Part shown: positions 20,485 to 64,000 of the stretch, one piece after another
Layout: every line of letters starts with the position of its first letter
Position numbering within the stretch: the stretch's first letter is position 1
Assembly: GCA_947561715.1 (NCBI GenBank)
Contig: OX387198.1
Location: 4,154,001 to 4,218,000, forward strand
From: Ascidia mentula
Taxonomy: Eukaryota > Chordata > Ascidiacea > Phlebobranchia > Ascidiidae
DNA: 64,000 nucleotides
Direction of reading: 5' to 3'
The notes under the pieces: generated by a model
What the model saw: the letters and a program-made list of their open reading frames with translations, nothing else
The model's database searches: none
What the model was told of the DNA's origin: nothing
Position numbers and translations under genes: made by a program

Positions 20485-23400
20485 ATGCTATGGCTTGTGA
20501 TGGCAAAATACCTGTGGCTTATTCAACTTTTGGCAAAGCATGAAAGTGAGAACATTATAAAAAATAAGCGTACTTTTATTATCAAAAGTGAGTGTACTTT
20601 TAATTTCAGCCAGAGGAGAAAATATCAAAGCAGTAAAAGACAGTATTTTGATATTATCTGATGATCTTGTGGATGCGAACACTGCACAGGAGAAATGTGG
20701 ATTGATGGGTGGGAATCTTGTAATGACTGAAGACCCACAGATTAACACAACTCTGGTTCGAATGATAACAGATAAATACACATTGGGTGAGATTTTGTGT
20801 TCCCATTAAATTTTGGTCCTTAATATTTTACACTGTGGTGATGTAGGATTCCAGCGACTTTGGTTGTTTTATGATTTCGGTGTCAATAAAATATGCGGAT
20901 ATTTTTTTGATCTGCGCGAGGTTTCACCATGGAAAAGTACAAAGCGACTTGGATTGATGTGGTATATTGATTTATTTACCCAGTAAGACCAAAAAATGCT
21001 TGGCAAACTAAAATGTATATGATGCGGTTATTGTACATGCAAACATTCTCTTTTTTAGTGAACCAAAAAACAGTTCGGAGACTCTTTACGTTTGCGTGGC
21101 CCATGCCGGTTCGGGAAGGAAAAAGTGGCAGATTAGGGCGGGGAGTAACTGCTATATTGCGTCACCATGGAATGGTACGTACTTAATATTAAATCTACTT
21201 TTTAAACAAACGCTGGTCTTTGCGTTTCTTGTTTTGTTTTCATAGGTTGGGAGTTAAAATACACATTATTTGCCCGTGACAAGCCTGGGGATGGATACAA
21301 ACAGATTTACATTTACCAAAATCATGGGATTTGGTCAAATTTGTTGAGAAGTGTTGAAGAACCCTACAATACATTTACAAGGTTCATCGGTCATTTTACG
21401 TTCCAGGTTGGCTTGTTTCTGATCTTATTTAGTTTCATATATGTTTGGGTTGGTGTAAAATTATGTCATGCAATCCCATGACAAGACAGGGTCGCCCTAC
21501 TGCTTAGGCCATTAATGCTCTGCGATCTCGGCTCTCGTATATTTTAAATATAAGATTTACTGCCATCGCAGCCATGCATTGCAGCCAAGCTGGTTTAGCA
21601 ATATTTGCGGACAGATTTGGGCGAAATCTTAAAAATCAAGCTCCCTGTGGTTGGGTTGATTTTTTTCACTTGTTAAGTAACCATTTATTTGCATTTTGAG
21701 TTGTTTTATTTGGAAACGCGTAAGGGTTGCCGACTACCTCAAAGCATAAACGTCGAATTTTGCAAGTACTTTAACGCGAATATATGTCAGCAAAATTTGA
21801 CATTACAAATACTGAAACACACCATATCACTCTTTTACAAATCTTACTGAACAGGTTCTCCATTATTTACCTCATGCTCCAATTGCGGTGTAGTGACAGT
21901 TTTATGTTTTTTAGATGTCAATGTTATGATCGGAGCTCGTTTTAACACTTCACTCAATGGTTGGTATTGGAGCGACGGATCTCCAGCAAACTTCTCTGTT
22001 TCCAACGTCACAACTTGTCAGCAGAGAGCGTTGCATTATGGGATAGGATGGGAGCAGTCAAGCGTGAACTGCAGTGGAGAACCTGCTTACTACGCTTGTC
22101 AAGTTAAACGTATCAAAAGTTAATATGTTCTTAAACCAATAATAATCTATTGTAATATAATGTAACTCAAAAACTAAGGTGTTTTTGGTCTTAGTGTTAT
22201 GCGTTTTACCTAAGATTGTCAAACGTGTATTGTAACATTGTGCAGTCGATATATTGTTGCTATTGACAGTCGTTGTTACTGCGACAACTTTTCCTTGCAA
22301 TATCGCAACAGTCAACGTGAGGTGGACTGGATTGGATTCATTCATGAAAACCAACAAACTCAATGCTAAGGTTTTTCTGAATTGTTTATCTTTTGTTTTA
22401 CTTCATATATTTAAAATATAATCACCTCCACATGGGCACCTAAAACGGTAACCATTATGGGATAGTTTTGGTCCCCATGTATTTTAATATATCGTGTTGA
22501 TTATTCAAGTGCGTAGTAAGTTTTCGTGCAAAGTAATAGTCATTTAATTTGATTTGATTTGATTTGACTCTAATACACGATCGCAATGAAAATACTTTAT
22601 CTGTTACAGGTAAAACTTAATATCAAGGGGTCAGCTAAAACATTCTATCCACCATATGATTCCAAATCGTTAAATATAACCAACTTTAAAAACTCAATCC
22701 TCTACGAAATACAAGTAAACACATTTCGTAGTAAAATTTTGCAAGTAAATGCTGTGATTAATTATATTATTCCATTAAAGATCACCGCAATTCTTGTTGG
22801 ATGTATTACCTCAAATGTTACCACCACTGTCAACGTATCAACTTTGGACAAACCATTAGAGTCATGTTTTAAGTCGAAATCCACTTTTCCCTTGTCAGTT
22901 TTACGAACGACGACAACTAATTCCACTGCATCAGGATCAACAAACCGGTTTAATCTTTCAACAGGATACACTTATCAACACATAACCACTCTCGCAAATA
23001 CTGAAGAAACTTACAGCAGTAATAAAGCTTATGTAGCAGGAATTGTGGTTGGGATATTACTTGTTGTGGTTTTGGGGATTATCTTTGTTCGGAAATTCTA
23101 CAGGTCAGTTTAGTGTTTAAGATGCTCAAATTATGTTGCATGCATAGACTTCAGTTTTTACAATTGAGTTAACAGATAGGCAGGTACTAAATAAGTTGCA
23201 AAATTTCAAATTATCACAAAGGTGTCAATGGCCTGCAATTTTGTTTTGTTTTTTTAGCAAACCATCTAACGTTGGGAATATAAGTGCAAATGAAAACCCG
23301 GAAGGTAAATCTGCTGTTGGATTTCGTTTGTTTTCCTGTGTACTCTTCTTATAAAAACACATTTTTGGGGGTTTTCAACTGCTGTTGTGGTTTCGATCCA

Positions 23401-23639
23401 TATACTGCAAATAAAAAGCCATTTACAGTTTATTCGGCTTTAATGTTATTTTGTTTATTCCAAATATTGGTGTATTTTTTTATTGACTGCTTATTGGATT
23501 TTGTAGTTAGCCAATTTTGGTTACGCATTATTGATTATTGTTGTTGACAGAATCGCCCCCTCAGTATGAAACCATCGGGGATGCTCCAACATATATGAAC
23601 GTTGCAATGCACACACCGGAAGGAGTTTACGATAACTGA
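20485..23639 (+). CDS. Gene A: lectin-like/FN3 receptor with short tyrosine tail (probable frameshift)
   Basis: Eleven exons follow the family plan: signal peptide 20485-20545, lectin module 1 in 20610-20786, 20847-20982 and 21059-21174, module 2 in 21246-21406 and 21915-22109, FN3-like region from 22270, and a fused FN3-end/stalk/transmembrane exon (22781-23103, helix AGIVVGILLVVVLGIIF). The tail exon 23551-23639 contains YETI, PTYMN and GVYDN-stop. Module 1 has the CTLD-like [12 protein letters not shown]. Module 2 has the WYWSDGSP signature. No EPN or QPD sugar motif is seen. Exon 5 is one base shorter than in gene B just before its donor (around 21390), so joining it to exon 6 leaves the normal frame. 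Either the gene is disabled, an unusual donor is used, or the assembly has an error. Its exon 3-5 sequences group with gene B. Confidence 0.7.
22547..22568. repeat. TTTGA microsatellite
   Basis: About four tandem TTTGA units in intron 7 of gene A. Low-complexity tract, no further role seen. Confidence 0.6.
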
Positions 23640-24991: not shown

Positions 24992-27900
24992 ATGTTCTGG
25001 CTTGTGATGGCAAAATACCTGTGGCTTATTCAACTTTTGGCAAAGCATGGAAGTGAGAACATTATTTTAAGCGGTCATTAATATCAAAACTAAGCGTACT
25101 TCTACTTTCAGTCAGAGGTGAAAATATCAAAGCAGTAAAAGACAGTATTTTGATATTATCTGATGATCTAGTGGATGCGAACACTGCACAGGAGAAATGT
25201 GGATTGAAGGGTGGAAATCTTGTGATGACTGAAGATCCACAGATTAATACAACTCTGATTCAAATGTTGGCAGATAAATATATATTTGGTAAGATTTTGA
25301 ATTCCCATTAAATTTTTGTCCTTAATATTTTACACTGTGGTGATGTAGGATTCAGGCGACTTTGGTTGTTTTATGATTTCAATGGTCGCAAAATATGCGG
25401 ATATTATTTTGATCCGCGCGAGGTTTCACCATGGAAGAGCACAAAGCGACTTGGATTGATATGGTATCTTGATTTCTTTGCCAAGTAAGGGAAACATATG
25501 GCAGTATAAGTTATGAAAAAGTTCATGTTGCAGTTATTGTAGTATAAGCAAAAACCTGTTACATGTACAACATGTTAATTAAACCTTACGTAAACGAAAA
25601 ATTAACATTTAAGTGAACCAACAAACGATTCGGCGACAATTTACGTTTGCGACGCCAATGGCGGATCGGGAAGAAGGAAATGGCAGCTAACTGCGGGAAA
25701 AAACTGCCATATTGCGTCACCAAAATGGAACGGTGTTTACCTAATGTTTTTGAATCTTTTCACACATTTTCAATGGATTTCTATCAACTAACTTTAAGGT
25801 TGGCATTTAAAACACACATTATTTGCCCTGAACAAGCCTGGGGATGGATACAAACAGATTTACATTTACCAAAATCATGGGATTTGGTCAAATTTGTTGA
25901 GAAGTGTTAAGGAACCCTACAATACATTTACAAGTTTCATCGGTTCGTTTTATGTTCCAGGTAAACTATATTTACATCCCTTTCCATAAATTTTGGCAAA
26001 AATTTAAACGAATGACGAATGCATTTTATAAAATTGGATTTAAACCATTGAAACTATCTGCAGATATAAATGTTATGGTCGGAGCACGTTTTAACACTTC
26101 ACTCAATGGTTGGTATTGGAGCGACGGATCTCCAGCAAACTTCTCTGTTACCAACGTCACAACTTGTCAACAGAGAGCGTTGCATTATGGGATCGGATGG
26201 GAGCAGTCAAGCGTAAACTGTAGTGGAGAACCTGCTTACTACGCATGTCAAGTTAAACGTAAAACATAGTAAATTTGTCGTTAAAACAATACCTGTAAGT
26301 ATTTTTGCAGTCAGACTTTTATGGAATAAATGCGCTAGCAATGCAAACAAAAGTTTCATCGGCCACGTAAAGTCGATTTTTCTGCTCAATCCTCACAAAA
26401 AGTTTTTTATTTGGAAAAGTAAGGTTATTTTACGTGTGTAGTTGTTGCTACTGCGAGATCATTTCCGTGCAACATTACAACTGTTAATGTTGAATGGACA
26501 GGACTTGATTTATTCATGACAAATGCAAGTGTGAGTCAAAAGTTAAGATTTTTTGTTATTTCAGTGACTTATACATTTAACCTTCAATACGTTGCAATTA
26601 TTAACAGTACGTTGAGATTTACGAGAAAATTATTTGGTAGATGAGAGTACAAATATCATCGAACAATTTGAAAAATCCTGTATACCAGCCGTACATCAAA
26701 AAATCAACTAATATTTCCAACCTCAATATTTCAACGTTTTACACTTTTAAGGTATTTATGGTTGTTATAATTATTATTGTTTATATTACATAAATGTTTA
26801 CAGGTTACAGCCTTTACGGAAACCATTAACGAAAATGTCACGACGTCCCTAAATATTACAACAAACGGCAAACCGGATAAAGCTTGCCTTTTGACAAGTA
26901 AGTGCTGCAAGTTATGACGTTCATTACTAAAATCCAGTGTTTGCATTTGTGGAAAAAGCTACAACAGAAATTCCAACTACTTATGCACGATCCGACACTT
27001 TACCCAACACCAACCCTACAACAAGTAGTGTTATATCTTCCACTGTGGATCTAACAACAGGACATGATGGGAATTCTATCAAAACAAACACAGGGACGTC
27101 CAATACTGGTTTAATAGCAGGAATTGTAGTTTTCGGAGTGCTGGTGTTTGTGTTAATCGGAGTCGTTTATTTTTGGAAGAGGTATAGTAGTAATGTTCAC
27201 TTTTGTAGATTATCACAGCTTCAAACATTGACTCAAACATGGTTGCATTACACAGAAAAAAATCTAATATCAAACACGACCCTTTGGAAATAGCTGTACA
27301 TGAACCAAACGGTAAAATAGTTGAAATAAACCGAAGTTTCTTTCATTTTGGCATAAGTTATATTTCCAGGAGATATACCTGACCCCACATATCAAAACCT
27401 AAACTTCAATGATGAACAACCCAATATCGCATTCAAGTCAGCTTTGTTCGACAGTTACAAGAAAAACGCAGAAACAGATTACACTGGATTCAAAAATGAA
27501 TTCAAGGTGATTTTTATCATGCGAATGCATACAATTTTGAAAATATTGCAATAGGCAAATGTAAGGATACGGCAGGTCAACTAATTTTAAAAAACGCAGT
27601 TTTTATGTTTTCAAATTAACAAAAGTTAACAAATTTCTGACGGTATGTCTACAGAAAATAGAAAACGAAAGTGAGGCCAACCAAAGTTCAAAAGCGATTT
27701 CACAATTGCCAGCGAACGCCGTGAAAAACAGATACAAAAATATATACCCGTGTAAGTTATAACAATAAACATCCCACAAGAAACTAATAGTACATACCAC
27801 GGACATATATTCTTATTGAACAGACGACCACGCGAGAGTGGCGCTGGCTGAAGCAATTGCCGGTGATTACATCAACGCCGCCTACATACCCGGTTACAAA

Positions 27901-30157
27901 AGTTCACGAAAGTTCATCGCAACCCAGGGACCAAAAGAGGAAACAGTCATTGATTTCTGGCCGATGGTTTGGCAAGAAAACTCCACCATCATAGTTATGC
28001 TGACTGGCTTGGTTGAAAATGGAAAGGTCAGTCTCTATGACGATATATTTCGTTGCTTGACAAATAATATCTGCTTTTGACATCTTTTATATTCCTTTCT
28101 TTTTGTAGTCTAAGTGCGAACAGTATTGGCCAAACATTGGGTCCAATAACGAAATGAAGCCCGGTTTTTCTGTACAAACAGAACGCGAAACACAAGTTGG
28201 CGGCATTATTCAACGACAGATCATTTTGGTCAGAGAGAAGGTGCTGCGACGATGCACTCATTTTTCACCCTGTTGTATACCAGTTGTTTTCGCAGGAGAA
28301 ACGTGAAGTGACACAGCTTCATTACACAACTTGGCCAGATCATGGCGTTCCTGTCACCACAACCAATATGATTTACCTACGTAATATGGTGGAAGACTTG
28401 CACACGACTAATGCTCCAATCATTGTTCATTGCAGGTAAGATTGTGTTTTGTAATCAGCTGCTGATAAAATCCAAAACTCTGGTATTCAAATGCAAATGT
28501 AACGCGAATTGCTTTTGCTTTAAAGTGCTGGCGTTGGTCGATCAGGAACTTACATAGCAATGGACACTTTGTTTGACGAACTTGGTGATAAAGGAACGGT
28601 TGATGTTCCTGGGACTGTTCTAAGGATGAGGGAAAACCGTAAAGACATGGTTCAAAACTGGGTAATTAAATTCTATTAGTTTAAATTTGTTTCTCCAAAT
28701 TGAAAGAAAAATGTCGAAAATACTTTTCTGCAAAAAGTTGCATTTTTTGTGTTTAAACAAATTCAGAGTTAACTTTTTCCATTTTTACAGAAACAATACA
28801 TCTTCGTTTATAAGTTGTTGCTGGAACGTGAATGTTTTAAATCTGAATCTGATAGAAGCGTGAGCCAACTACAATCACTCAGTCCAGCTGAAATGTAAGA
28901 CAATCACGTTTTTTTACCCTTGAAAACATTTCCCTTTTCTATATAAAAAGATCTTCGATTCAAAATGAGGAGTTCAGAGTTTTGTCCGAGTGGAGATATG
29001 GCGGAGATTGGAAGGAAAACGATCTCAAATTAAAAACATGTGAATTTTTGTTGTGTAATGATTTTTATGACGAAGTTCAGTTTGTTTTAAAGTTAAATTA
29101 TTCTTTATGCAGACAAAAGCACAGCAATTTCCGTTTGGGACGAAAGTAGTCAAAACACAATACAAATGAATGCCTCATTTATACAAGTTAGACACAAACC
29201 TTACTTCTGTTTTTTATGCTCGTACAAAATGTGGTTAGTAAACTCTACATGGTGACGTATTGCACACAGGAGTTATCATCAGAAACATTTATTGCTGCCC
29301 GAGGACCGATTGCAGGGGAAGAAAAGAATTTCTGGATGATGGCAATCACCAGAGATGCACAAGTGATTGTGGATTTAAATGATACTGTTAAGGTGAGGCA
29401 AATAACAGTTGTTCCAAACATTGGTTTACACAACCTCTCGTACATATAATTATGCTTGTCCACGGTTTGTAACAGATTTTATCGCAAAAGGCAAAGAAGC
29501 TGGATTTCGATGATTTAAGCATGTCAGTTATTGAAACCAAAGACTATTCAACCCATAATTGTATCACTATGACAACAAAGTGCCCACGCTTTGGAATCGT
29601 AAGTCTTAAAACACTTGAAAATTTGCATAACGGTACTCATTCTGTGCTTTGATTTATGCGCGTTCTTTAATAAAGGTCGATCGTCGGATGAGCGTTGTGC
29701 AAGTTAAAGAATGGAGCAATGTAGAAGAACCGCCGAAAGAAGTGGATTTTATTAAAGTTGTTGAAAGTGTTCAACAAATGAGATCAGAACGGAAATGTAG
29801 AAACGTGCTGGTGTGCTGCAGGTTGCCCTGGTGATGTTTTTTGTCGCATAAATCATTTTGAACAAACATTTTGCATTTTCAGCAACGGATGTACAAGAAC
29901 TGGAACTTTCATTGCTTTGTCCAACATTCTCGATCGCCTGAAAGTTCAAAACCGAGTTGATATTTTTCGAACTGTGAAGGATTTGAGAGACATGAAACCT
30001 AACATGGTTAATAATAAGGTAGATTAGCATAGAATGCCCTTGCCATGTAACTTAACTCGTTATTGCTAATTGCTTTCTGCAGGTGTTGTACAAGTACTGC
30101 TACGCTTTTGTGGGCAAGTATCTGGAAGAATTTAACCAGTATTCCAACTTTAAGTAA
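24992..30157 (+). CDS. Gene B: lectin-like/FN3 receptor tyrosine phosphatase (D1 + D2)
   Basis: Receptor-type PTP of roughly 1,000 residues with no visible break. Ectodomain exons are 24992-25052 (signal), 25112-25288, 25349-25484 and 25614-25732 (lectin module 1), 25799-25960 and 26064-26258 (module 2), FN3-like exons from about 26447 to 26900, then stalk and helix (near 27120-27180, [20 protein letters not shown]). A juxtamembrane exon has PTYQNL. D1 (about 27655-28900) has [27 protein letters not shown] and, across an intron, [12 protein letters not shown], so it should dephosphorylate phosphotyrosine. D2 (about 29114-30157) keeps a CX5R loop ([10 protein letters not shown]) but has no WPD and no KNRY, so it is probably a pseudophosphatase. 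CTLD-type modules on an RPTP are not part of any vertebrate RPTP class I know. Confidence 0.85.
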
Positions 30158-31570: not shown

Positions 31571-34500
31571 ATGTTGCGGGTACTTGGTACCAAACACATG
31601 TGGATCAAAGTATTTCTTCAGCTTTTAACAGTATCCAAAGGTAAGAAATTTGCTGATGAAAATGTATTTTTAGTAAATGCTTGTGTTTGTTAGTGCACAG
31701 TCAAAACCATACAACCGTCAAAGACAGTATTTTGATATTATCTGATGATCTTGTGGATGCTAACACTGCACAGGAGAAATGTAGTTTGATGGGTGGAAAT
31801 CTTGTAATGACTGAAGACCCACAAATTAACACAACTCTGACTCGAATGTTGACAGATAAATACACCTTTGGTAACAAATATTGCACATATAAATTTGTAC
31901 TTTGCCAAGATATTTTTGATATTTTTAACGTACCCAGATTTGAAAAGAGTATGGATATTTTACAATTTTACGGGTACAGATGTATTTGGATATTATTTTA
32001 CTTCAAATGAATTACACTGGGAAAGTACAAAATCACTTGGATTTCGTTCGTATCTTGACTTTTATGATAGGTGAATCAACATTATAATTAAACTGTTTGT
32101 GGTAATTGCTTGATTATATAACAGTATAATTCATTTACCACTTCGTTGTTTTATGGCTGTAATATTTCATCACATATATGAATTATTTCAGAAAATCTGG
32201 GGATGATTTGGAACGAATTTATTTTTGCCGCGCATATTTTGAAGCAAATTCAACACAGAGGAAATGGCAAGTGAAATTTGGTGAAAATTGCCAATTTGGA
32301 CAAATTAAGGCACCAGAATGGAATGGTAAGCAACATGTACCTTGGTACATTGGCGCAGCTTCGAGTTGGACAACCGAAAACAAATGTGTGGAACGCTAAA
32401 ATCTTCATGTCCTTTTTTTCAACTAAAAACTTAATAGATCCGATAGGTTTTAAGGTCAAGTGGCGTATGCCAAAACGTGTTCATATCTACATATTTTCAA
32501 ATTGATTTTGAAATGCGTTACGTAGGAGTCAACACAGAAAAAAACAGACACAAAAATTATAATCATCAATATACTGCTATGCTTGGATCCTGGGGCCGAG
32601 ACAGTCCTTTGTTTTTTAATGTTTTTAAACAAATAGACGAAGATGAACAAAAAAATTTAAAATGTCATTGGTTTTAGGTTGGGACTATGTGTTTAAATTA
32701 ACAGCTCGCAACACCTCAGGACCAGGATACAAGCAAATATATATGTACCAATATGATGGCCTGTGGGCAACTATGTTAAGAAATGTCAATAAACCATACG
32801 GTTCGTATCAAACTTACGTGGGATCATTCTTCGTACCAGGTAATCTTTATCTTACACAAAATGTTAAAAATTCTTTTTAGAATTTTGAAAGAATTTTAAA
32901 TCTCCCGCATACGAAATATTTGTCTTCATTTGAAAGGAAAACATTTACTAACAAGAAACAAATGTACCGTTCTATACCTCGAAATAATTAACCACACCTG
33001 ATTTGTGAGCTGAACTTTTTAAAGACATTCGTGTTATGATCGGAGCTCGCTTTAACACTTCACCCAATGGTTGGTATTGGAGCGACGGATCTCCAGCAAA
33101 CTTCTCTGTTTCCAACGTCACAACTTGTCAACAGAGAGCGTTGCATTATGGGATAGGATGGGATCAGTCAAGCGTGAACTGTAGTGGAGAACCTGCTTAC
33201 TACGCTTGTCAAGTTAAATGTAGGCCCTACTTTAGAGACACAATATTCGATTTTCGTAAAAAGGTTTTTAGGGTTGTAAACGTGATGATAAACGTATCCA
33301 TATGTTATTGTGGGTAACAACAGGGTTTGTTAGTTCGGTTGTTCAACGTGAACACGCATAGGATGTTTATGTTTCATCTTTCGCGTTTAATTTACAATTT
33401 CATTGGATACACTATTTCAGAAATTTTAAATATGATACTAAAAACGCACGGTTTCGTCTGATTAATGTTTTCCTTTTCCAAATAAGTTACAGACAGGCAT
33501 GTTCTCAACACTTTCAATGCTTATGTGTGTAATATCAAATATTTATATTTTTACCGCTGGTATTTTATTTGTAGTTGCTGCTTCTGCAACAAGGTTACCT
33601 TGCGATGTCAACACAGTTAACTTAACGTGGACGGGACTTGATTATTACATTTCCAACTTCAAGACTGATATCGAGGTATCTTACTTCCATATTTGTATGC
33701 ACGCTGTTTAAATAGTGCATATTTGTATGCATCTTATAAAAGTGAAAATGATTATTAACACATTGTCATGTTTGCCTTATGCGATCTGAATATTCTCAGG
33801 TCAAAGTTAATATCCAACCGTCCAATACATCAACCAATTTGCCATATGGTGATAAGTTCTTACGCATCAGCAACTTGCAAAACTCAAGTCACTACAACAT
33901 CTCGGTAAAAATTTAGTTCTGCTGTTTTGTGTGGTTATGAATAAAGTGCAGAACGTTCCGTCACATTTAAGGTTACTGCAATTTTTATTGGATACAACAC
34001 CACTGTCAGTACCACTGTCAGTGTATCAACAGCGGATCAACAACTTGAATCATGTTTCACAGTTGGTAAACACATTTATTCGAATAAGATATTTCTAATA
34101 CACTTCAATCAACCAACTATTTAGGAGCAACAAATGGACCGAGATTACCCAATGCAACGGAAGCCATGGATCAATCAACTAATATTCGCCATCAAATTGT
34201 AACAAACATTTACATCACGAATTTCAGTTACGTTACCGGAATTGTTGCCGGCATAATACTACTTGCCGCCGTTGGGATTGGAATTTCTGGGAAACTATGC
34301 AGGTAAGCGTATTATATAGTGTTTGTATGAGTATAAATTGGTTGACATAGAACAGGAGCATTTTATAGTGAGCTGCAGACAGATCGGCCTAATAGGTCTC
34401 ACCAGGGCAGCTATGGCGTGACTTGCAACGATCTTGTCTGCTAGACTTCCACTTTGTGGTGACTGCTGTATAGCCACCATTTGCAGTTGGTAACCAAATT

Positions 34501-34884
34501 AAGTGTAACCCGCCGAAAACCAGCCAAGGTGGAAACAATGTGGCCAAGCAGTTTTACCATCCTGCATTAATTTTTCATCGGTTTAACATCATTTTAAAGT
34601 ATTGGTTTGTACTTAGGTCGTTTCTAAGATTAATTTTGTTCTGCAGAAGAACGAAAAGTGCAAACACAGGCGGAAATGATACACAGCACAAAGATGAAGG
34701 TACACATTTTGGAGTTTAATAATGAGCTTTGTGTATTGAAGGTGGCCAAAATAACCCTGTGGGGGAAATATATTCGTATACATTTTGTTTAGTTGATAAA
34801 TCGGCCAAATACGACACCATTACAACTGTTCCAACATATATGAATACTGGCATCCACATCGGAAAGGACGTGTGCGAAAATTAA
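31571..34884 (+). CDS. Gene C: lectin-like/FN3 receptor with two-tyrosine tail
   Basis: Twelve exons, apparently intact. The signal exon starts at 31571 (MLRVLGTKHMWIKVFLQLL). Lectin module 1 spans about 31692-32324 with [14 protein letters not shown] and RIYFCRAYFE. Module 2 covers about 32677-33219 with [16 protein letters not shown] and [10 protein letters not shown]3-like exons lie at 33575-33676, 33801-33903 and 33971-34064. The stalk and helix exon (34125-34301) has VTGIVAGIILLAAVGIGISG. The tail exon 34793-34884 has YDTI and PTYMN; the third position, Tyr in other members, is Cys (DVCEN-stop). Gene I is a close duplicate with the same loss. Expected to be a type I plasma-membrane receptor whose tail tyrosines, if phosphorylated, could recruit SH2 proteins. 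It has no catalytic domain of its own. Confidence 0.85.
34362..34570 (+). repeat. Dispersed repeat in intron 10 of gene C
   Basis: Starts TTTTATAGTGAGCTGCAGAC, followed by CTAATAGGTCTCACCAG and a second half around TGGTGACTGCTGTATAG. Related in reverse orientation to 23925-24066 and duplicated with the gene at 62210-62410. Type uncertain: a non-autonomous element or an old foldback. Confidence 0.45.
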
Positions 34885-38100: not shown

Positions 38101-38179
38101 TCAATACGAAAATATTGATACTGCCCCAACATACATGAATATTGTTCACCGCCCACCAGAGGGCGTATACGAAAATTAA
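35135..38179 (+). pseudogene. Gene D: lectin-like/FN3 receptor with tyrosine tail, exon 3 mostly deleted
   Basis: Most exons match the family: signal 35135-35213, exon 2 from 35275, exon 4 near 35632-35762, module 2 exons near 36059-36220 and 36732-36926 (195 bp), FN3-like exons 37165-37483 and 37539-37636, stalk/helix ending 37874, tail exon 38091-38179 with YENI, PTYMN and GVYEN-stop. Exon 3 has lost about 100 bases including its acceptor. The remnant at about 35470-35523 ([14 protein letters not shown]) lies only some 20 bases after the exon 2 donor, too close for a normal intron. Skipping exon 3 would shift the frame. A full-length product is therefore unlikely, although the 3' half remains open. 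Recently disabled, or still expressed as an odd isoform. Confidence 0.7.
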
Positions 38180-45400: not shown

Positions 45401-45782
45401 ACTAAAAAAATCAGAAAATAGAACCTGTTTTATATAAACACAGCAGCCATGCAAAATGTGTTTGCAATCATTAAATATCTGCTTAATCCTACGCGTTTAA
45501 ACTATTGTATGGAAACCAGCGCATTTTTCCTGTTTCATTTTGTTTTGCAGACGACCACAGCCTGGAAACTCAACAACAAATGACCTACATGGGAAAGCAG
45601 GCGGTAGGTGTATTTTCAAGTCTGTGTTAATAAGAGTATTGCAAAACCAAAAAGTTAGTTTTTGTATCTTTCTTAATTTAAACTTGTTTACAGATTCATC
45701 AAATCAATACGAAAATATTGAAACTGTCCCAACATACATGAATGTTGTTCACCACCCACCAGAGGGCGTATACGAAAATTGA
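42481..45782 (+). CDS. Gene F: lectin-like/FN3 receptor with three-tyrosine tail
   Basis: Twelve exons, frame intact throughout. Signal exon from 42481 (MLLNVVSTQMRFVIFLQLL), exon 2 from 42612 ([14 protein letters not shown]), exon 3 about 42857-42994 (LRRLWIFHNFTGTN), exon 4 about 43119-43251, module 2 at 43490-43651 and 43991-44185, FN3-like exons 44422-44521, 44592-44719 and 44776-44872, stalk/helix 44933-45112 ([20 protein letters not shown]), linker 45551-45602, tail 45694-45782. The tail has YENI, PTYMN and GVYEN-stop, three tyrosines each with Asn at +2, the Grb2 SH2 consensus. In exon 6 the middle cysteine (NCSGEP in most members) is Ser (KSSGEP), so one disulphide of module 2 is probably missing. 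This is the best intact model of the three-tyrosine type. Confidence 0.85.
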
Positions 45783-50300: not shown

Positions 50301-50670
50301 AAAACAGAAAACAGAACTTGTTTTATAAACACAGCCATGCAAAATGTGTTTACAGTCATTAAATATCTGCTTAATCCTACGCGTTTAAACTATTGTATGG
50401 AAAACAGCGCATTTTTCCAGTTTCATTTTGTTTTCCAGACGACCACAGCCTGGAAACTCAACAACAAATGACCTACACGGAAAAGCAGGCGGTAGGTGTA
50501 TTTTCAAGTCTGTGTTAATAAGAGTATTGCAAGAACAAAAAGTTAGTTTTTGTATCTTTCTTAATTTAAACTTGTTTACAGATACATCAAATCAATACGA
50601 AAATATTGAAACTGTCCCAACATACATGAATCCTGATCACCATCCACCAGAGGGCGTATACGAAAATTGA
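47382..50670 (+). pseudogene. Gene G: decayed lectin-like/FN3 receptor
   Basis: Same exon plan and spacing as F (about 4.9 kb downstream) but with several lesions. Exon 3 has a partial tandem duplication of the TGGAAAAGCGCAAAA segment (about 47813-47855) leading to stops. Exon 4 has a stop in SQ-stop-RKW. Exon 5 has an extra T near 48395 that creates a stop after YRF. Exon 7 has a Trp-to-stop change, and exon 8 a Lys-to-stop change at IKST. Exon 6 (48883-49077), stalk/helix (to 50005) and tail (50582-50670, YENI, PTYMN, GVYEN) are still open. It is a clear pseudogene, yet its exon 6 is as close to the family consensus as in working genes. Confidence 0.9.
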
Positions 50671-52202: not shown

Positions 52203-55200
52203 ATGAGAAATATTTTAAATGTTGTATCCAAACAAATGTGGTTTATTATATTTCTTCAGCTCCTGACAGTACCAAAAGGTAGGTAAATATTTTATCACTG
52301 AGTATTTGATTATCTTATAGTTTAATTGCATCTAACAGTGCACAGTCAAACCATCAAAGCAGTAAAAGACAGTATTTTGATATTATCTGATGATTTTGTG
52401 GATGCAAACACTGCACAGGAGAAATGTGGATTGATGGGTGGAAATCTTGTAATGACTGAAGACCCACAGATTAACACAACTCTGACTCACATAATGACTG
52501 ATATTTATACAAATGGTATTTTTTCCAAGTTAATTTTTAACTTCTTAGCAGTTTGGTCTGTTAATTGCAACCAACCAACGCAGATTTAAAACGGCTATGG
52601 ATTTTCCATGATTTTACGGGTACAGATATATTTGGATATTATTTTGATCAAAATGCGATGGGTAATTATTGGAAAACTACAAAATCACTTGGAATTTTGT
52701 CGTATCTTGACTTTGATACAAGGTGAGTAAACATTTCACGCTATTTAACAATCGATTGCATATCAAAAATTTTGTTGAGTGTTGGCATGGTTTGTTATAT
52801 TAAAAACTATATTTTATGCTTTTCATGCGAAAAACATTTTAGAAAACCTGGAAACACATCAGAACGAATCTATTTTTGCTACGCATATTCCGAAAATAAT
52901 ACCCAAAGAAGAAAATGGCAAGTGAGAGTAGGTGGAAATTGTCAAGTGGGAGTAACGAGTCAACCAGGATGGAATGGTGAGCAAAATGTAACTTGATTCA
53001 TTGACGGAGCGTTAAGTTAGATAACCACCGAGAACACGAAACTGTTGATAGCAAAATAAATCATCCATAAAATAACTTTATATTTCGAAGATCAGTGTGG
53101 AAAAATTATCTTCACTAGTTATCGATATGGCGGCATTTGGAAAAAAATGGTTTGTTTCTGATTTATTTGTATTAACATGTACGGTTTTTTTCTTCCACGC
53201 AGGTTGGGATTACCAGTTTAACTTAACAGCTCGCAGCACCTCAGGACCAGGTTACAAGCAGATATATATGTATCAATATGACGGTGTGTGGGCAACTATG
53301 TTAAGAAATGTCAATAAACCTTACGGTTCGTATCAAACTTATGTGGGATCATTCTTCGTACCAGGTAATCTTTCTTCTCAATTTATTAATCAACGAAAAA
53401 GGCGCTTTTGATTAAGGTGATGTAGTTGAGGGGTTTGCAACGTAAACGAGGCCCGGCAAATTTAAACATACGGGCTACTTTCGCATTTATTATGAAATTT
53501 GTATCTAATAAAGTTTCCATTGCGATGGGAAATTTTGTTTCACAATTTTTGGAAACTGCGTAAGTCGTATGTTGCAGCTTGCGATCTATTTTAATTTGAA
53601 AATGTGAAATGGTAATATCATCAAAACGTATTTTCAATCATAATTTTATTATTGACAATTATTTAAACAAGGACTATTTCGGAGTGCTGATTTGCATGTC
53701 TTCCTTCAGCTTGAACAGTTTGAGATCCCTGTACTAAAAGCATTAAATACAAATGGAAATGTTGGAAACAGGATAATAATCTAAATTTAGGTTTAATCAC
53801 ATTCAAGAGCATGATAAACGATTTTAATGTACAACACATACGGAATAAAAAACACGACTTTCCACCAGCTTACAAGCCGTCGGCAAACTCATGGAATATA
53901 TATTCTGCAAGGATAACTTAAGTATATAAAAAGAATCAATGCTGAATTGACTTCATACATTGAGAGTAGGGAATGCATGCATGATGCGCCACAATGTTTA
54001 ATATAAACGAAACTCATTTTTTTATTAACACCTTTCAGCCAACTGTAAAATCGAACAAAGCAAATGTATTAGCAAATGATTTGTTCTAGATATAAATGTT
54101 ATGATCGGAGCTCGTTTTAACACTTTACTCAATGGTTGGTATTGGAGCGACGGATCTCCAGCAAACTTCTCTGTTTCCAACGTCACAACTTGTCAGCAGA
54201 AAGCGTTGCATTATGGGATCGGATGGGAGCAATCAAGCGTGAAGTGCAGTGAAAAATCAGCTTATTACGCGTGTCAAGTTAAATGTAATGCAAATTTTAG
54301 GCAGTTAGATGCCATTTTTAAACTGATAGTATTCAATTGAGAAAAAACGGCGCTTTAAATGCTGTTAGGGAACTATATTACCGAAAAATGAAAACAACAA
54401 TGTTGCAGATGATTTAAACGATAATTTGTCACAGTTGCCTTTAAATGATTAATTGTCATTGCAGTAAGCACACAGCAACCACCAATGGCGCAATGCTTTT
54501 GATTACGTCAGTCTGATTTTTTACTTTGACAGTTTTTGCTTCGGTGAAGGTTCTTCCTTGCAATGTTACATCAATCAATGTAGAATGGAGTGGTTTGGAC
54601 AAAATAATTGCCCAACCTATCATCAACTCAAATGTAAGTACGCCCAACAACATTTATTTAGAGGTAGGAAAATATGCACAAGACAAAAAAGTACAAGAAT
54701 CTCCATTGAATTTGTTGAAGCCGAAAGTGAAAATTTACGAGGCACAAAAGGGAATATCAATCTACCGTAATTACAGCATCAAATCAACAACCATCAGCAA
54801 CCTAAATAAATCGACATTTTACTCTTTTGAGGTTTGAATTGAAATAGGTTTGTAAAATGTGTATGTTGAGTTTTACTGATTTTGTTTAGATTACAGCGAT
54901 GCTGACCGGAAATATCACAGCAAATCTCCCAACGACACTAAATATTACGACAATTGAAGAACAAGACAAATCATGTTTTTTGTCCTGTAAGGTTTAATTG
55001 ATGTATGACTGTGTCATTGTTTTATTGTCGTACCTTGTGTTGTTCAGATGAGGTTGCTTATCCACAAAATCACACTATTGGTCTCATAGCAGGAATTGTG
55101 GTAGGCGTGTTGATTCTTGTTTCAATTGGAACATATCTATTGTGGAAAATGTAAGAGTTTACAAATCCCTCGTTTCTGACTGTAATCTAAACTATTCATG

Positions 55201-58086
55201 CCAAAGGTTTCATAAATATCTGTGTTGAATTTTTATTTTCAGAACAATATCCAAAAGAAGCAGACGAGGTTCAGATAACACCTCAGCTAGTCCTGAAGGT
55301 AACAAATATAACATTGTAACAAGTATGACATTCACATTGCTTTATGATTGCAATTGTTTTTAGTTGAGACACCAGAGGTCACATATCCGAATCTGAATCG
55401 TAAAGTGAAACAACCCAACCCCGAACCTATTTCGGCGATGTTTAATATTCACAAGAAAAATGTTGAAACTGACTATGTTGGATTTAAGAACGAATTTAAG
55501 GTAGTTTTTTATTGTACTGGAAAACCATAATCATTAAATATTGTTTCAATGCTAAATATTTTTTTTTGTGTAACTCATCATGGAGAAGTTGCATACGATT
55601 ATATCCTTTTTTAGAAAATAGAAACCGAGAGTCAAGCCAGTGAGAGGTCGAAAGAAGTTTCACAATTGCCGGAGAACGCTGTGAAAAACAGATACAAGAA
55701 TATATATCCGTGTAAGTTCTGACGTGCGCGTACATTTGCAAAACAGAATAGACATTGAATAACGCGGCATGTTTCACGTTCTCATGCAGACGATCACGCC
55801 AGAGTGATAGTAGGCACAACAACGGGCAGTGATTACATTAACGCCGCCTACATACCAGGCTATAAGAATTCTCGAAAGTTTATCGCAACTCAAGGACCAA
55901 AAGAGGAAACAATCATTGATTTCTGGCTGATGGTATGGCAAGAACATACAACCATTATTGTTATGCTGACTGGTCTGGTTGAAAATGGAAAGGTCAGACT
56001 CCGAAATTCCTAGCATATGCGTATCTAACACCTTATGCACCTAACATTCGTTTTGTAGTCGAAGTGTGAACAATATTGGCCAAACATTGGTTCCAAGGAT
56101 CAAATAAAACCAGGCTTTGCCGCAGAAACAACACAAGAAATACAAGTTGGTGGAATTATTCAACGGCGGATCATTTTGCTGCATGATAAGGTGGTTTTGA
56201 CAATGCTCTCATTTTCCATTTAGTCTTACTCGGTGATTTTCCAGGAGAAACGTGAAGTGACACAGCTTCATTACACAACTTGGCCAGATCATGGCGTTCC
56301 AGTCACCACAACAAATATGATTTACCTACGTAAGATGGTTGAAGACTTGCACACGACTAATGCCCCAATCATCGTTCATTGCAGGTAGTATTTGGTAATC
56401 AGCTGCTGATTAAATCCAAAACTCTGATATTCAAATGCAAATGTAACGGGGATTGCTTTTATTTTTAAGTGCTGGCGTTGGTCGATCAGGAACTTACATA
56501 GCAATGGACACTTTGTTTGACGAACTTGGTGATAAAGGAACGGTTGATGTTCCTGGGACTGTTCTAAGAATGAGAGAACACCGTAAAGACATGGTTCAAA
56601 ACTGGGTAATTAAATTGTATTACCCTGAATTTGTTTCTCCAAATTGAAAGAAAAATGTCGAAAATACATATCTGCAAAAAAGTTGCATTTTTTGTGTTTA
56701 GACAAATTTAGTGTTACCTTTTTTCCATTTTTACAGAAACAATACATCTTCGTTTATAAGTTGTTGCTGGAACGTGAATGTTTTAAATCTGAATCTGATA
56801 GAAGCGTGAGCCAACTACAATCACTCACCCCATCAGAAACGTAAGACAATCGCGTTTTGTTTATCCTTGAAAACACTTTCCTTTTCTACATAAAAAGATC
56901 TTCGATTCAAAATGAGGAGTTCAGAGTTTTGTCGGAATGGAGATATGGAGAAGAATGGATGGAAAACGATCTCAAGTTAAAAACATGTGAATTTTTGTTG
57001 TGTAATGATTTTTATGACGAAGTTCTGTTTGTTTTAAAGTTAAATTATTCTTTATGCAGACAAAAGCACAGCAATTTCCGTTTGGGACGAAACTAGTCAA
57101 AACACAATACAAATGAATGCCGCATTTATACAAGTTAGACACAAACCTTACTTCTGTTTTTTATTGTCGTACAAAATGTGGTTAGTAAACTCTACATGGT
57201 GACTTATTGCACACAGGAGTTATCGTCAGAAACATTTATTGCTGCCCAAGGACCGATTGCAGGGGAAGAAAAGAATTTCTGGATGATGGCAATTACCAGA
57301 GATGCACAAGTTATTGTGGATTTAAATGATACAGTAAAGGTGACGCAAATAACAGTTGTTCCCAACATTGGTTTACACAACCTCTCGTACATAATTATGC
57401 TTGTCCACGGTTGTAACAGATAGTATCGCAAAAGGCAAAGAAGCTGGATTTTGATGATTTAAGCATGTCAGTTATTGAAACCAAAGACTATTCAACCCAT
57501 AATTGTATCACTATGACAACAAACTGCCCACGCTTTGGAATCGTAAGTCTTAAAACACATGAAAATTTGCATAACGGTACTCATTCTGTTCTGTTCCTAT
57601 AAAGGTCGATCGTCGGATGAGCGTTGTGCAATTTAAAGGATGGGAAAATGTGGAAGAACCACCGAAAGAAGTGGATTTTATTAAAATTGTTGAAATTATT
57701 CAACAAATGAGATCAGAACGGAAATGTAGAAACGTACTGATTTGCTGCAGGTTGCCCTGGTGATGTTTTATGTCGCAAAAATCGTTTTAAACAAAAATTA
57801 TGCATTTTCAGTAACGGATGCACAAGAACTGGAACTTTCATTGCTTTGTCCAACATTCTCGACCGCCTGAAAGTTCAAAACCGAGTCGATATTTTTCGAA
57901 CTGTGAAGGATTTGAGAGACATGAAACCTAACATGGTTAATAATAAGGTAGATTAGCATAGAATGCCCTTGCCATGTAACTCAACTCGTTATTGCTGATT
58001 GCTTTCTGCAGGTGTTGTACAAGTACTGCTACGCTTTTGTGGCCAAGTATCTGGAAGAATTTAACCAGTATTCCAACTTCAAGTAA
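52203..58086 (+). CDS. Gene H: lectin-like/FN3 receptor tyrosine phosphatase (D1 + D2), chimeric
   Basis: Second RPTP, no visible break. Signal exon from 52203 (in-frame second Met at 52236), exon 2 from about 52337, exon 3 about 52585-52722, exon 4 about 52844-52977, module 2 near 53203-53364 and 54090-54284, FN3-like exons 54532-54632, 54665-54830 and 54891-54987, short stalk and helix to 55150 ([20 protein letters not shown]). Juxtamembrane VTYPNL. D1 (about 55616-56840) has [27 protein letters not shown] and [12 protein letters not shown], so catalysis is expected. D2 (about 57060-58086) has [10 protein letters not shown] but WENVEEPP in place of the WPD loop. Ectodomain, signal exon and upstream repeats follow F and G, while the phosphatase half follows B. 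The gene is therefore a recombinant of two lineages. Confidence 0.85.
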
Positions 58087-59483: not shown

Positions 59484-62400
59484 ATGTTGCGGGTACTTGT
59501 TACCAAACACATGTGGATCAAAGTATTTCTTCAGCTTTTAACAGTATTCGAAAGTAAGAAATTTGCTGATGAAAATGTATTTTTAGTTAATGCTTGTGTT
59601 TGTTAGTGCACAGTCAAAACATTACAACCGTCAAAGACAGTGTTTTGATATTATCTGATGATCTTGTGGATGCGAACACTGCACAGGAGAAATGTGGATT
59701 GATGGGTGGAAATCTTGTAATGACTGAAGACCCACAAATTAACACAACTCTGACAAGAATGTTGACTGACAAATACACTTTCGGTAACAAATATTGCACA
59801 TATAAATTTGTACTTCGCCAAGATATTATTGATATTTTTAACGTACCCAGGTTTGAAAAGAGTATGGATATTTTACAATTTTACGGGTATAGATGTATTC
59901 GGATATTATTTTACTTCAAATGAATTACACTGGAAAAGTACAAAATCACTTGGATTTCGGTCGTATCTTGACTTTTATGATAGGTGAATCAACATTATAA
60001 TCTGTTTGCAGTAATTGCTTGATTATATAACAGAATAATTCTTTGCACTTCGTTGTTTTATGGCTGTAATATTTCATCACATATATGAATTATTATAGAA
60101 AACCTGGGAACGATTTAGAACGAATTTATTTTTGCCGCGCATATTTTAAAACAAATTCAACACAAAGGAAATGGCAAGTGAAATTTGGTGGAAATTGCCA
60201 AGTTGGACAATCGAAAACAAATGTGTGGAACGGTAAAATCTTCATGCATTTTTTTTCAACCAAAAACTCAATAGATCCGATAAGTTTTAAGGTCAAGTGG
60301 CGTATGCCAAATCGTGTTCATTTCTACATATTTTCAAATTGATTTTGAAATGCGTTACGTAGGAGTCAACACAGAAAAAAACAGACACAAAAATTATAAT
60401 CATCAATATACTGCTATGCTTGGATCCTGGGGCCGAGACAGTCCTTTGTTGTTTAATGTTTTTAAACAAATAGGCAAAGATGAACAAAAAAATTAAAAAA
60501 GGGCATTGGTTTCAGGTTGGGACTATGTGTTTAAATTAACAGCTCGCAACACCTCGGGACCAGGTTACAAGCAGATATATATGTATCAATATGACGGCCT
60601 GTGGGCAACTATGTTAAGAAGTGTCAATAAACCATACGGTTCGTATCAAACTTACGTGGGATCATTCTTCGTACCAGGTAATCTTTATCTTACACAAAAA
60701 ATTAAAAATTCGCCTGAGAATTTTAAAAGAATTTTAAATCTCCCGCATACGAAATATTTGTCTTAATTTGAAACGAAAACATTTACTAACAAGAAACAAA
60801 TGTACCGTTCTATGCCTCGAAACAATTAACCACACCAGATTTGTAAGCTGGACTTTTTAAAGACATTCGTGTTATCATTCGAGCTCGTTTTAACCCTTCA
60901 CTCAATGGTTGGTATTGGAGCGACGGATCTCCAGCAAACTTCTCTGTTTCCAACGTCAAAACTTGTCAGCAGAGAGCGTTGCATTATGGGATAGGATGGG
61001 AGCAGTCAAGCGTGAACTGTAGTGGAGAACCAGCTTACTACGCTTGTCAAGTTAAATGTAGGCCATACTTTAGAGACACAATATTCGATTTTCGTAAAAA
61101 GGTCTTAAAGGGTTGTGAACGTGATTGATAAACGTATCCGTGCATTATTGTGGGTAACAACAAGGTTTGTTTGTTCGGTTGTTCAATGTCAACACGCATA
61201 GGATGTTTATGTTTTATCTTTCGCGTTCAATATACAATTTCATTGGATACACTATTTCAGCAATTTTGAATATTATACTGAAAACGCACGGTTTCGTCTG
61301 ATTAATGTTTTCCTTTTTCCAAATAAGTTACAGACAGGCATGTTCTCAACACTTTCAATGCTTATGTGTGTGATATCAAATTTTTATAATTTTACCGCTG
61401 ATATTTTATTTGTAGTTGCTGCTTCTGCAACAAGGTTACCTTGCGATGTCAACACAGTTAGCTTAACGTGGACGGGACTTGATTATTACATTTTCAACTT
61501 CAAGACTGATATCAAGGTATCCTACTTCCATATTTATTTGTACGCTGTTTAAATATTGCATATTTGTATGTATCCTATAAGAGTGGAAATGATTATTAAC
61601 ACATTGTCATGTTTTCCGTTATGCGATCTGAATATTCTCAGGTCAAAGTTGATATCCAACCGTCCAATACATCAACCAATTTGCCATATGGTGATAAGTT
61701 GTTACGCATCAGCAACTTGCAAAACTCAAGTCACTACAACATCACGGTAAAAATTTAGTTCTTCTGTTTTGTGTGGTTATGAATAAAGCGCAGAACGTTC
61801 CGTCACATTTAAGGTTACTGCATTTTTTATTGGATACAACACCACTGTCAGTACCACTGTCAGTGTATCAACAGCGGATCAACAACTTGAATCATGTTTC
61901 ACAGTTGGTAAACACATTTATTCGTATAAGATATTTCTAATACACTTTAATCAACCAACTATTTAGGAGCAACAAATGGACCGAGATTACGCAATGCAAC
62001 GGAAGTCATAGATCAATCAACTAATATTCGCCATCAAATTGTAACAAACATTTACATCACGAATTTCAGTTACGTTACCGGAATTGTTGCCGGCATAATA
62101 CTACTTGCCGCCGTTGGGATTGGAATTTCTGGGAAACTATGCAGGTAAGCGTATTATATAGTGTTTGTATGAGTATAAATTGGTTGACATAGAACAGAAG
62201 CATTTTATAGTGAGCTGCAGACAGATCGGTCTAATAGGTCTCACCATGGCAGCTATGGCGTGACTTGCAACGATCTTGTCTGCTATTTAATACTTCCACT
62301 TTGTGGTGACTGCTGTATAGCCACCATTAGCAGTTGGTAACCAAACTAAGTGTAACCCGCCCAAAACCACCCAAGGTGGAAACAATGTGGCAAAGCAGTT

Positions 62401-62743
62401 TTACCACCTTGCATTAATTTTTCATCGGTTTAATATCATTATAAAGTATTGGTTTGTACTTAGGTCGTTTCTAAGATTAATTTTGTTCTGCAGAAGAACG
62501 AAAACTGCAAACACAGTCGGAAATGATACACAGCACAAAGATGAAGGTACACATTTTGGAGTTTAATAATGAGCTTTGTGCATTGAAGGTGGCCAAAATA
62601 ACCCTGTGGGGGAAAAATATACTCAAAAAAAAATATGTGCATTTTGTTTAATAGATACATCGCCCAAATACGACACCATTACAAGTGTTCCAACATATAT
62701 GAATACTGGTGTCCACATCGGAAAGGACGGATGCGAAAATTAA
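59484..62743 (+). CDS. Gene I: lectin-like/FN3 receptor with two-tyrosine tail
   Basis: Intact duplicate of gene C. The signal exon from 59484 (MLRVLVTKHMWIKVFLQLL), exon 2 from about 59608 and exon 3 (about 59850-59981) are close to C. Exon 4 (about 60100-60231) ends differently: SKTNVWNG instead of IKAPEWNG, because a 70-bp deletion joined it to former intron sequence and a new donor (G-GTAAAA) arose there. Module 2 exons lie at about 60517-60678 and 60863-61057. Exon 6 carries RARFNPS where most copies have GARFNTS. FN3-like exons follow, then the stalk and helix (ending about 62143, VTGIVAGIILLAAVGIGISG) and the tail exon 62655-62743 with YDTI, PTYMN and, as in C, Cys instead of the third Tyr (DGCEN-stop). 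Confidence 0.85.
62210..62410 (+). repeat. Dispersed repeat in intron 10 of gene I
   Basis: Same element as 34362-34570, carried along when the C-containing block was duplicated. Same position within the intron. Confidence 0.45.
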
Positions 62744-63544
62744 AACCTTGTTTAAAGAAAAACTTATTGTTCATTAGTTGTATATATTTGTATCCTTATT
62801 TACGATTTTGTCAAGGGCATATAAAAAAATTTACATAAAAAAAATCGTTTCGGAACTTGCATTGCCTTCTGTAATATAAAAACAACAATTGTTTCATGTG
62901 ACGTAATAAAAGCTTTCACTACGAGGCGACCCTGCATTTGCACACGTGCGTTGTCCTAATGCGTTGTGTGTTACCTTTGCAAAAATAAGGAGGCTCGGAA
63001 AGTCTTGATTGTGACCACAAATTGGGCAACTTTGTGAACACTCTAACCAGTGAGCACATATACATCATTCGGTTGAGAAGTGGCCCTTTTAGTCATGATA
63101 TGAATGCAGTAGATCGTTGATAAAGTTTTAGTCATAAAACTTGAAAAGCTGTGAAACTTCAGGAGCAAATGCTTTGTTGTTTTTGATGCAGAAACGAATA
63201 GATAAAAATAAGTTGAACAGCACAAACAAATCATTTGTGTTTCGTTGATTGTTTGTTTAGAAGTTGGTTTCAGAGTAACAGCATGGGTGAAGTAATATTT
63301 CCTGCCACCCACACAGCATACGCCAGCAATGTACGTTAACTGGTAACACTGTCAAAACAACTTGTAGAGTTGGAACTTCCTGGAATGACAGTTTTAACTA
63401 GTTTAATCATAAAGTAGTGTGTTCGCAGTTGAAACACGGTAATACAGGTTAGAACCGGCAATTTCTGATCTGTTTAAGTAGCCCATATTAAAGGTAGTGT
63501 TCATTGTGTTGGTATGGTTTACAGAAGTTGTTTTGCATCAGGCA
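62744..63544. other. I-J spacer
   Basis: The first part (to about 62972) copies the flank after gene C. From about 63039 it matches 39524-40032 before gene E. Compared with this, the C-D spacer (34885-35134) lacks about 560 bases. Confidence 0.6.
62905..62910 (+). promoter_or_regulatory. Poly(A) signal, gene I
   Basis: AATAAA about 160 bases after the gene I stop codon, homologous to 35048-35053 after gene C. Confidence 0.5.
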
Positions 63545-64000
63545 ATGAAGAAAATTATGCTGAATATTGTCTCAGGAAAAATGTGGTTTATTGTATTTCT
63601 TCAGCTCCTGACAGTACCAAAAGGTAGGGAAATATTTATTACTGAGTATTTGATTATTTTATTGTTTAATTGCATCTGACAGTGCACAGTCAAACCATCA
63701 AAGTAATAAAAGACAGTATTTTGATATTATCTGATGATTTTGTGGATGCAAACACTGCACAGGAGAAATGTGGGTTGATGGGTGGAAATCTTCTAATGAC
63801 GGATGACCAACAGATTAACACAACTCTGATACAACTTTTAACTGGTAAATATGCGCATGGTAATTTTTTACAGCTAATTTTTGATTTCCCAGCAGTTTGT
63901 CTGTTAACGGCAACCCAACTAACACAGGTTTAAAACGCGTATGGATTTTCCATGATTTTACGGGTACACATATATTTGGATATTATTTTAATGAAAATGC
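63545..64000 (+). CDS. Gene J: 5' end of another lectin-like receptor (runs off right edge)
   Basis: Signal exon from 63545 (MKKIMLNIVSGKMWFIVF), exon 2 from about 63682 ([14 protein letters not shown]) and the start of exon 3 from about 63931 ([13 protein letters not shown]) are visible and intact. The signal exon and 5' flank match genes D and E. Its place after H and I repeats the order B-C-D on the left, so it is probably the counterpart of D. The cytoplasmic type cannot be told from this window. Confidence 0.8.

Follow-up and report, generated by a model that had tools for sequence, protein, structure and literature searches.

How does a single family of cell-surface receptors come to end inside the cell in two ways, some members in a tandem protein tyrosine phosphatase (PTP) and others in a short tyrosine tail? 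The question is raised by a 64-kb stretch of the genome of the ascidian Ascidia mentula, called the window here (C2:4,154,001-4,218,000, in an assembly of 195.8 Mb and 79 contigs), in which 10 loci on the + strand, from position 20,485 to the window end, follow a common exon plan in whole or in part. The mitochondrial code agrees with an ascidian source: of three genetic codes applied to COX1 on contig C79, the ascidian one, with AGA/AGG read as glycine, gives back glycine at conserved sites. The reading preferred here, to which we give a probability of about 0.55, locates these loci in a clustered, birth-and-death repertoire of recognition type, in which PTPRA-like receptors and phosphatase-less docking versions would share one type of head.

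Two kinds of receptor in one array

Loci were detected as recurring families of + strand exons, from 20 kb onward, in a self-comparison of the window; gene F was built by hand and then served as guide to the exons of the other loci, and signal and transmembrane segments were called by eye. The plan consists of a signal exon, e2, e3-e5, e6, an FN3-like region (e7-e9) and a transmembrane exon (e10). Five genes read as unbroken GT-AG frames (B, 1045 amino acids (aa); C, 488 aa; F, 499 aa; H, 1029 aa; I, 487 aa), and exon phases are identical among the intact genes B, C, F, H, I and J. Common phases together with stop-free frames of 25 exons are far past what chance would give, a judgement that is argued and not computed as a statistic.

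Genes B (24,992-30,157) and H (52,236-58,086) are complete receptor phosphatases of 25 GT-AG exons each, without a stop; in both, the transmembrane exon is followed by e11, a juxtamembrane exon and 13 phosphatase exons. That these two genes end in tandem D1-D2 phosphatase domains, as had been proposed from the letters alone, is borne out: B matches Pfam Y_phosphatase twice (E 1.2e-108), and the phosphatase half of H was assigned by exon-by-exon alignment with B, not by Pfam. Exon e8 of H more likely occupies 54,721-54,831, since a start at 54,664 leaves an intron of 30 nt.

The proposal that at least six genes end in a short tyrosine tail also stands: the tail exon is found in seven of the 10 loci (A, C, D, E, F, G and I), and that of J lies just past the window. 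Intact tail receptors are C (31,598-34,884; tail YDTI, YMNT), F (42,508-45,782; 12 exons; YENI, YMNV, VYEN) and I (59,511-62,743), a close copy of C; J begins at 63,581, runs to the window end at 64,000 and is read partly beyond it, as 12 exons without a stop, to a tail exon that ends at about C2:4,220,914. A common head and helix in ten loci was thus predicted correctly, in whole or in part. At least four look damaged, each differently, and this must be set against the idea of a working repertoire. Locus A (20,485-23,639; YETI, YMNV, VYDN) has one base fewer than B close to the e5 donor, and its automatic model escapes a stop only by way of a 33-nt intron; locus D (35,171-38,179) lacks most of e3, can be spliced only across a 19-nt intron and is probably not full-length; locus E (40,057-40,762) is a remnant in which a deletion from inside e4 into e12 joins e1-e3 and the start of e4 to the tail exon; and locus G (47,382-50,670) is a pseudogene with three in-frame stops, in e4, e7 and e8.

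The array runs on past the window end. Cluster 1, as we call it, extends over C2:4,174,485-4,352,791 (about 180 kb) and holds 38 loci: 9 of phosphatase type, 23 of tail type (including the remnants 5 and 38) and 6 fragments. Automatic modelling took 30 of the 38, leaving out loci 5, 13, 17, 18, 22, 34, 36 and 38; 20 of the 30 models are stop-free. Among these 20, the models of locus 4 (19 nt) and locus 25 (-27 nt) contain an impossible intron, and one intron measures 33 nt in locus 1 and 30 nt in locus 8.

It might be supposed that the phosphatase exons make up genes of their own, each placed after a short lectin receptor. Between the transmembrane exon and the first phosphatase exon of B there are three introns, of 74, 58 and 148 nt, and phases are conserved; moreover, ectodomain exons precede phosphatase exons in eight of the nine cluster-1 phosphatase loci, locus 21 being the one without them. 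Such an arrangement makes separate genes very improbable. A different candidate, that one locus of cluster 1 splices to both ends, was rejected: the 23 tail exons found (E<=1e-3) are all accounted for by the 23 tail loci, and no phosphatase locus has one.

The phosphatase end

In B, the stalk and transmembrane helix (e10, 26,959-27,181) lead through two juxtamembrane exons (e11-e12, 27,256-27,506), with the motif TYQNL, to D1 (e13-e18, 27,655-28,894) and D2 (e19-e25, 28,951-30,157). Two PTP domains after a single helix, the helix called by eye, is the plan of the classical tandem receptor protein tyrosine phosphatases (RPTPs). D1 has the full set of catalytic motifs: WPDHG, HC, GVGRSG and KNRY are each present in all nine cluster-1 phosphatase loci. 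D2 lacks WPD, with WSN or something similar in exon e23 of the nine loci, and keeps the CX5R loop as CC-SNG-[CH]-TRTG, the last letter shown differing in one locus; D2 is probably a pseudophosphatase. The D2 domains of human tandem RPTPs likewise lack one or more catalytic motifs (PMC7959691).

Two further motifs are present in all nine loci, a juxtamembrane TY-x-N and a C-terminal YSNFK. The latter aligns with the C-terminal YANFK of PTPRA (Y-x-N-F), where Tyr789 is a Grb2 site (PMC7959691). PTPRA is also the best match of the phosphatase region in PDB, at 384 bits, followed by PTPRS at 368. A PTPRA-like character is made less distinct by the D1-only chains of several RPTP classes, which score about equally.

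The tyrosine tail

The tail exon sits at the position of the juxtamembrane exon and ends the protein, with two or three tyrosines. Across the 23 tail exons of cluster 1, TYMN is found in 22; the first tyrosine is Y-x-x-I in 22 and Y-x-N-I in 15; and VY[ED]N closes 19. Motifs of the form Y-x-N are therefore common to both receptor ends, and Grb2 prefers pY-x-N. By eye, and with the consensus taken from general knowledge, the cluster-1 tails do not fit the immunoreceptor tyrosine-based inhibition motif (ITIM); a tail of a second cluster (ITYANV), described below, does.

The tail exon could be a juxtamembrane exon that closes the protein early. Against this stands a sequence similarity of the two that is weak and mixed: compared with the cluster-1 tail, shuffled sequences did at least as well in 21 of 500 trials for B and in 244 of 500 for H. 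Figures for the cluster-2 tail are lower (1/500 for B, 5/500 for H), and those for the cluster-2 juxtamembrane exon are 45/500 and 6/500.

A second cluster

In a genome-wide search, for which all counts are lower bounds, exon e6 gave at least 97 matches (E<=10), most of which fall within cluster 1 or within a second cluster at C2:5.96-6.32 Mb. Cluster 2 has at least 18 matches to the phosphatase D1 exon (four without a start), besides two short ones. To a tail exon of its own, ITYANV...VYESMK, it has at least 28 matches at E<=2e-5 and some weaker ones. One tail gene and one phosphatase gene of this cluster were read in the DNA, and the tail gene has the exon phases of cluster 1. The plan with two kinds of end is thus repeated, with a distinct tail sequence.

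Isolated relatives of e6 lie outside the clusters, at C69:17.27 Mb, C52:16.81 Mb, C70:4.92 and 4.98 Mb and C2:4.92 Mb; at C52:16.807 there is also a tail exon of the cluster-2 type. More diverged groups of Y_phosphatase exons are found at C72:16.9-17.4 Mb, C72:5.3-5.5 Mb and C67:4.8-5.0 Mb.

Re-pairing of heads and ends

If heads and ends are exchanged, phosphatase and tail genes should in places have similar ectodomains. Seven phosphatase genes were compared with 15 tail genes. In this set the automatic model of locus 25 has exons that overlap, loci 1 and 4 appear damaged, and the model of locus 11 contains one stop, located outside the compared region. Phosphatase genes 8 (H), 11 and 32 have 84, 87 and 83% ectodomain identity to the nearest tail gene; the remaining four have 69-74%. 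A tree of ectodomains from the 29 loci with at least four of six exons (locus 36 among them without a tail label) has four switches of tail type, at least three of them forced by supported branches, and a topology that groups every phosphatase locus in one clade is rejected (approximately unbiased test, p-AU 1.3e-63). Matched outsides on two kinds of inside, the core of the original prediction, are thereby upheld; its ‘opposite insides’ and ‘counter-signalling’ are not, as both ends carry Y-x-N and a PTPRA-like enzyme need not inhibit.

The exchange has limits. Five of the seven phosphatase genes have their closest match in another phosphatase gene, and loci of one tail type group together on the tree, where a count as low as four changes was reached in only 3 of 500 shuffles; both facts tell against free combination, and re-pairing is therefore occasional. 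Gene conversion could, in addition, be distorting the ectodomain tree.

Gene H is a mosaic. Its ectodomain is F-like, the proportion of synonymous differences (pS) to F being 0.03-0.31 over exons e3-e9, and its phosphatase exons e16-e25 are close to those of B (pS 0-0.26). Between B and H, e3-e5 and e7-e9 differ at pS 0.61-0.83, and e13-e15 at 0.47-0.55.

A second kind of trace is found in genes 37 and 38, where a vestige of the last phosphatase exon, 20 residues long and with a stop in it (E 7e-4), follows the tail at a distance of 397 nt. The fossil in the two genes is one duplicated event; it suggests phosphatase loss as a possible route to a tail gene. The tail exons at C2:4,350,092 and C2:4,352,246 are near-identical copies, and by eye there is an inverted repeat between tail and phosphatase remnant, possibly a small transposon.

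Such decay invites another perspective, in which the whole is a lineage-specific family serving adhesion or development: the RPTPs would work as adhesion phosphatases of the usual kind, and the receptors with tails would be decoys, or degraded copies without signalling. Tandem RPTPs with FN3 domains are common, damaged and truncated copies are frequent in the array, and the phosphatase-exon fossil of one duplicated tail locus points the same way. Degraded copies would hardly be expected to keep TYMN in 22 of 23 tail exons while the tails of C and F differ at a proportion of nonsynonymous differences (pN) of 0.32, nor to appear again in cluster 2 as the same two-tail plan with a tail sequence of its own. 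We regard this perspective as unlikely.

A probably split lectin head

The original prediction gave each receptor two lectin-like modules; this is probably wrong, and the likeliest reading is a single C-type lectin domain divided between e2 and e6. The Pfam scan covered four spliced proteins, with a cut-off of 22.6 bits for Lectin_C. When e2 and e6 are joined, F scores 28.4 bits, a cluster-2 gene 27.6 in one stretch, and B 22.6, the cut-off itself; alone, e2 of F scores 14.1 bits and e6 gives no match. Controls in which e2 of F was joined to four shuffled versions of e6 gave 15.6, 14.2, no match and 14.6 bits, and e2 with the insert and without e6 gave 17.0 bits in F and no match in cluster 2. 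The joined profile, from a query off by one residue, matches chains of the mannose receptor, the PLA2 receptor, KLRG1, NKR-P1 and dectin-1 across the junction (best E 1.9e-5). Two modules were accordingly set aside, the joined score, the junction-spanning matches and the shuffle controls all favouring one split domain. In B, the N-terminal half would be e2 (25,112-25,288) and the C-terminal half e6 (26,064-26,258), most likely parted by an insert of about 140 aa, e3-e5 (25,349-25,960).

Two observations favour an alternative in which the lectin domain ends in e4: in full-length F the Lectin_C stretch covers residues 38-146, which belong to e2-e4 and leave out e6, with a score of 20.8 bits that does not reach the cut-off; and the 17.0 bits of F just mentioned are reached with e6 lacking. 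A further one detracts from the split: the reversed order, e6 before e2, still scores 21.4 bits, in two separate stretches. Full-length spliced proteins, in all four cases scanned, stay under the Lectin_C cut-off. On the sequence evidence this alternative is less well supported than the split domain.

The insert gave no convincing match. Profile searches gave two matches far under cut-off, in one of three inserts; a search of PDB gave a single match, at E 1; and the best family, DUF7457, was found at E 0.006 in one of seven members. The FN3-like region (e7-e9; 26,442-26,897 in B) matches Pfam fn3 at E 0.055-0.097 in three of the four proteins, also under cut-off, and Ig and sushi domains gave no Pfam match in the same four. 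The proposed profile check of the modules thus succeeds twice over in B for Y_phosphatase, succeeds for Lectin_C only with e2 and e6 joined, and gives sub-cut-off scores for fn3.

A canonical Ca-dependent sugar site consists of EPN or QPD plus WND. By eye, e6 carries WSDGSP but none of EPN, QPD or WND. A second reading frame is open across much of e6 in all eight loci that have this exon inside the window, probably as a by-product of high identity.

Exon-confined homogenisation

The two lectin halves have a history different from that of the exons around them. For pN and pS, exon copies with stops, with broken frames or of insufficient length were left out. Between ectodomain clades, mean pS is 0.165 for e6 and 0.303 for e2, against 0.59-0.66 for e3-e5 and e7-e9, and e6 has lower pS than both its neighbours in 176 of 183 pairs. 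The exons of the WPD loop and P loop (e16, e17, e23 and e24) are also low, at 0.09-0.21. Within cluster 1, e6 has a pS of 0.154 (24 sequences); within cluster 2, 0.10-0.20 (3 sequences); between the clusters, 0.572. Synonymous constraint alone is rejected as the cause of the likeness of e6, as it would not allow 0.572 between clusters beside 0.154 within cluster 1; each cluster therefore homogenises its own e6. When copies from different clades are aligned, the similarity ends close to the borders of the exon for six of six e6 pairs and five of six e2 pairs, the exception being e2 of C and F, where it extends into the introns. Such border-limited similarity may reflect conversion restricted to the exons that can still be aligned.

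From here it is a short step to the view that unequal crossing-over in a tandem array makes both tails and phosphatase halves, without any paired logic, re-pairing being a by-product of recombination. The mosaic H, with its F-like ectodomain and B-like phosphatase half, speaks for this, and exon-level homogenisation points to frequent conversion. Both kinds of end, however, are present in two clusters whose e6 exons have diverged to pS 0.57, so the mix is probably old, and both kinds have kept their motifs. Recombination as the whole account seems to us improbable for these reasons.

A proposed repertoire read through two ends

It weighs against a recognition repertoire that no exon has a mean pN above its mean pS, hence there is no simple sign of diversifying selection in this set. 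The repertoire of PTPRA-like receptors and docking versions remains the reading that we prefer, and it may be spelled out as follows. The receptor would be a single-pass protein, its one C-type-lectin-like domain split by an insert of about 140 aa that varies among paralogs, on an FN3-like stalk. Some members would keep a PTPRA-like tandem phosphatase, with docking tyrosines of the Y-x-N type both in the juxtamembrane exon and at the C-terminus; others would be cut short where the juxtamembrane exon lies, the exon there closing the protein as a short tyrosine tail, possibly derived from a phosphatase gene. Similar heads imply that both forms probably meet the same class of ligand, and the heads might bind a carbohydrate or a polymorphic self ligand. 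The tail form, once phosphorylated, would recruit SH2 adaptors, presumably of the Grb2 type; the form with a phosphatase would bind adaptors of a similar sort and alter the activity of Src-family kinases; and the response would be set by the local mix of the two. The two ends might act against each other. PTPRA can dephosphorylate the inhibitory site of Src (PMC7959691), and phosphatase receptors may for that reason promote signalling rather than block it.

An extension that we hold only tentatively, as a doubtful possibility, is that this is a self/non-self or immune system: a PTPRA-type receptor and its own phosphatase-less truncations would share a head in which an inserted domain, diverging faster, splits a C-type lectin domain. 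Exon-confined conversion would keep the two lectin halves alike as the insert changes, and the mix of receptors with and without a phosphatase would set a threshold for SH2 adaptors and Src.

Known paired receptors borrow phosphatases through ITIM motifs. If the extension is true, the array would be a paired-receptor system in which the phosphatase arm is covalent, built into one partner and not recruited by way of ITIM and SHP, in an invertebrate closely related to the vertebrates. It may also record catalytic receptors that lose the enzyme and become docking receptors, and it displays lectin-half exons that are homogenised while the insert between them diverges.

Surroundings in the window

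Positions 1-20,000 of the window hold, on the - strand, tandemly duplicated loci resembling adhesion G-protein-coupled receptors; three open frames there match GPS (1.6e-9), 7tm_2 (1.4e-14) and SUEL_Lectin (1.1e-10), and the segments 1-2,020 and 8,275-10,296 are 98.7% identical. A weak cellulose-synthase match (E 7.8e-5) was looked at as open frames and led nowhere. Between D, E, F, G and H there are intergenic units of direct repeats, at about 38.4-39.5, 41.0-42.3, 46.0-47.3 and 50.7-52.0 kb, which are part of duplicated blocks.

Comparison with known systems

No description of such a lectin family with phosphatase or tail was found among the titles and abstract openings listed by searches of the open-licence PubMed Central literature; partial likenesses are several. 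With PTPRA and PTPRE (class R4) the ascidian receptors share the tandem PTP, a D1 with full motifs and the C-terminal Y-x-N-F. They differ in many copies, a D2 without WPD and a split-lectin and FN3-like ectodomain; R4 receptors have a short ectodomain without adhesion domains, a trait absent here. The lectin domains of NKR-P1, KLRG1, dectin-1 and the mannose receptor, matched by the joined e2 and e6 profile across the junction, are not known to carry an insert of about 140 aa in this position; the signalling parts of those receptors are different as well.

Among invertebrates, the R3 RPTPs of Ciona have predicted C-terminal YxN sites and, with a single PTP domain, belong to a different class (PMC5336234). 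The nearest clustered phosphatase receptors found are those of SudRes1 in Biomphalaria, a region associated with schistosome resistance: these too are tandem-PTP receptors with varied ectodomains, of the MEGF and galactose-binding kinds, and the available part of the source describes no partners with tyrosine tails (PMC12297450). The nearest ascidian system found is fester/FcoR of Botryllus, a multigene set of type I receptors with polymorphic haplotypes on two chromosomes, whose heads are built of Ig and sushi domains, unlike the lectin head here; FcoR tails carry ITIM, hemITAM or Y-x-x-[ILV] motifs, and no phosphatase of their own is described for them in the part of the source at hand, unlike the family here (PMC12065747). 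Set beside these, the two clusters of A. mentula offer specific receptors as candidates for recognition in ascidians, separate from fester/fuhc.

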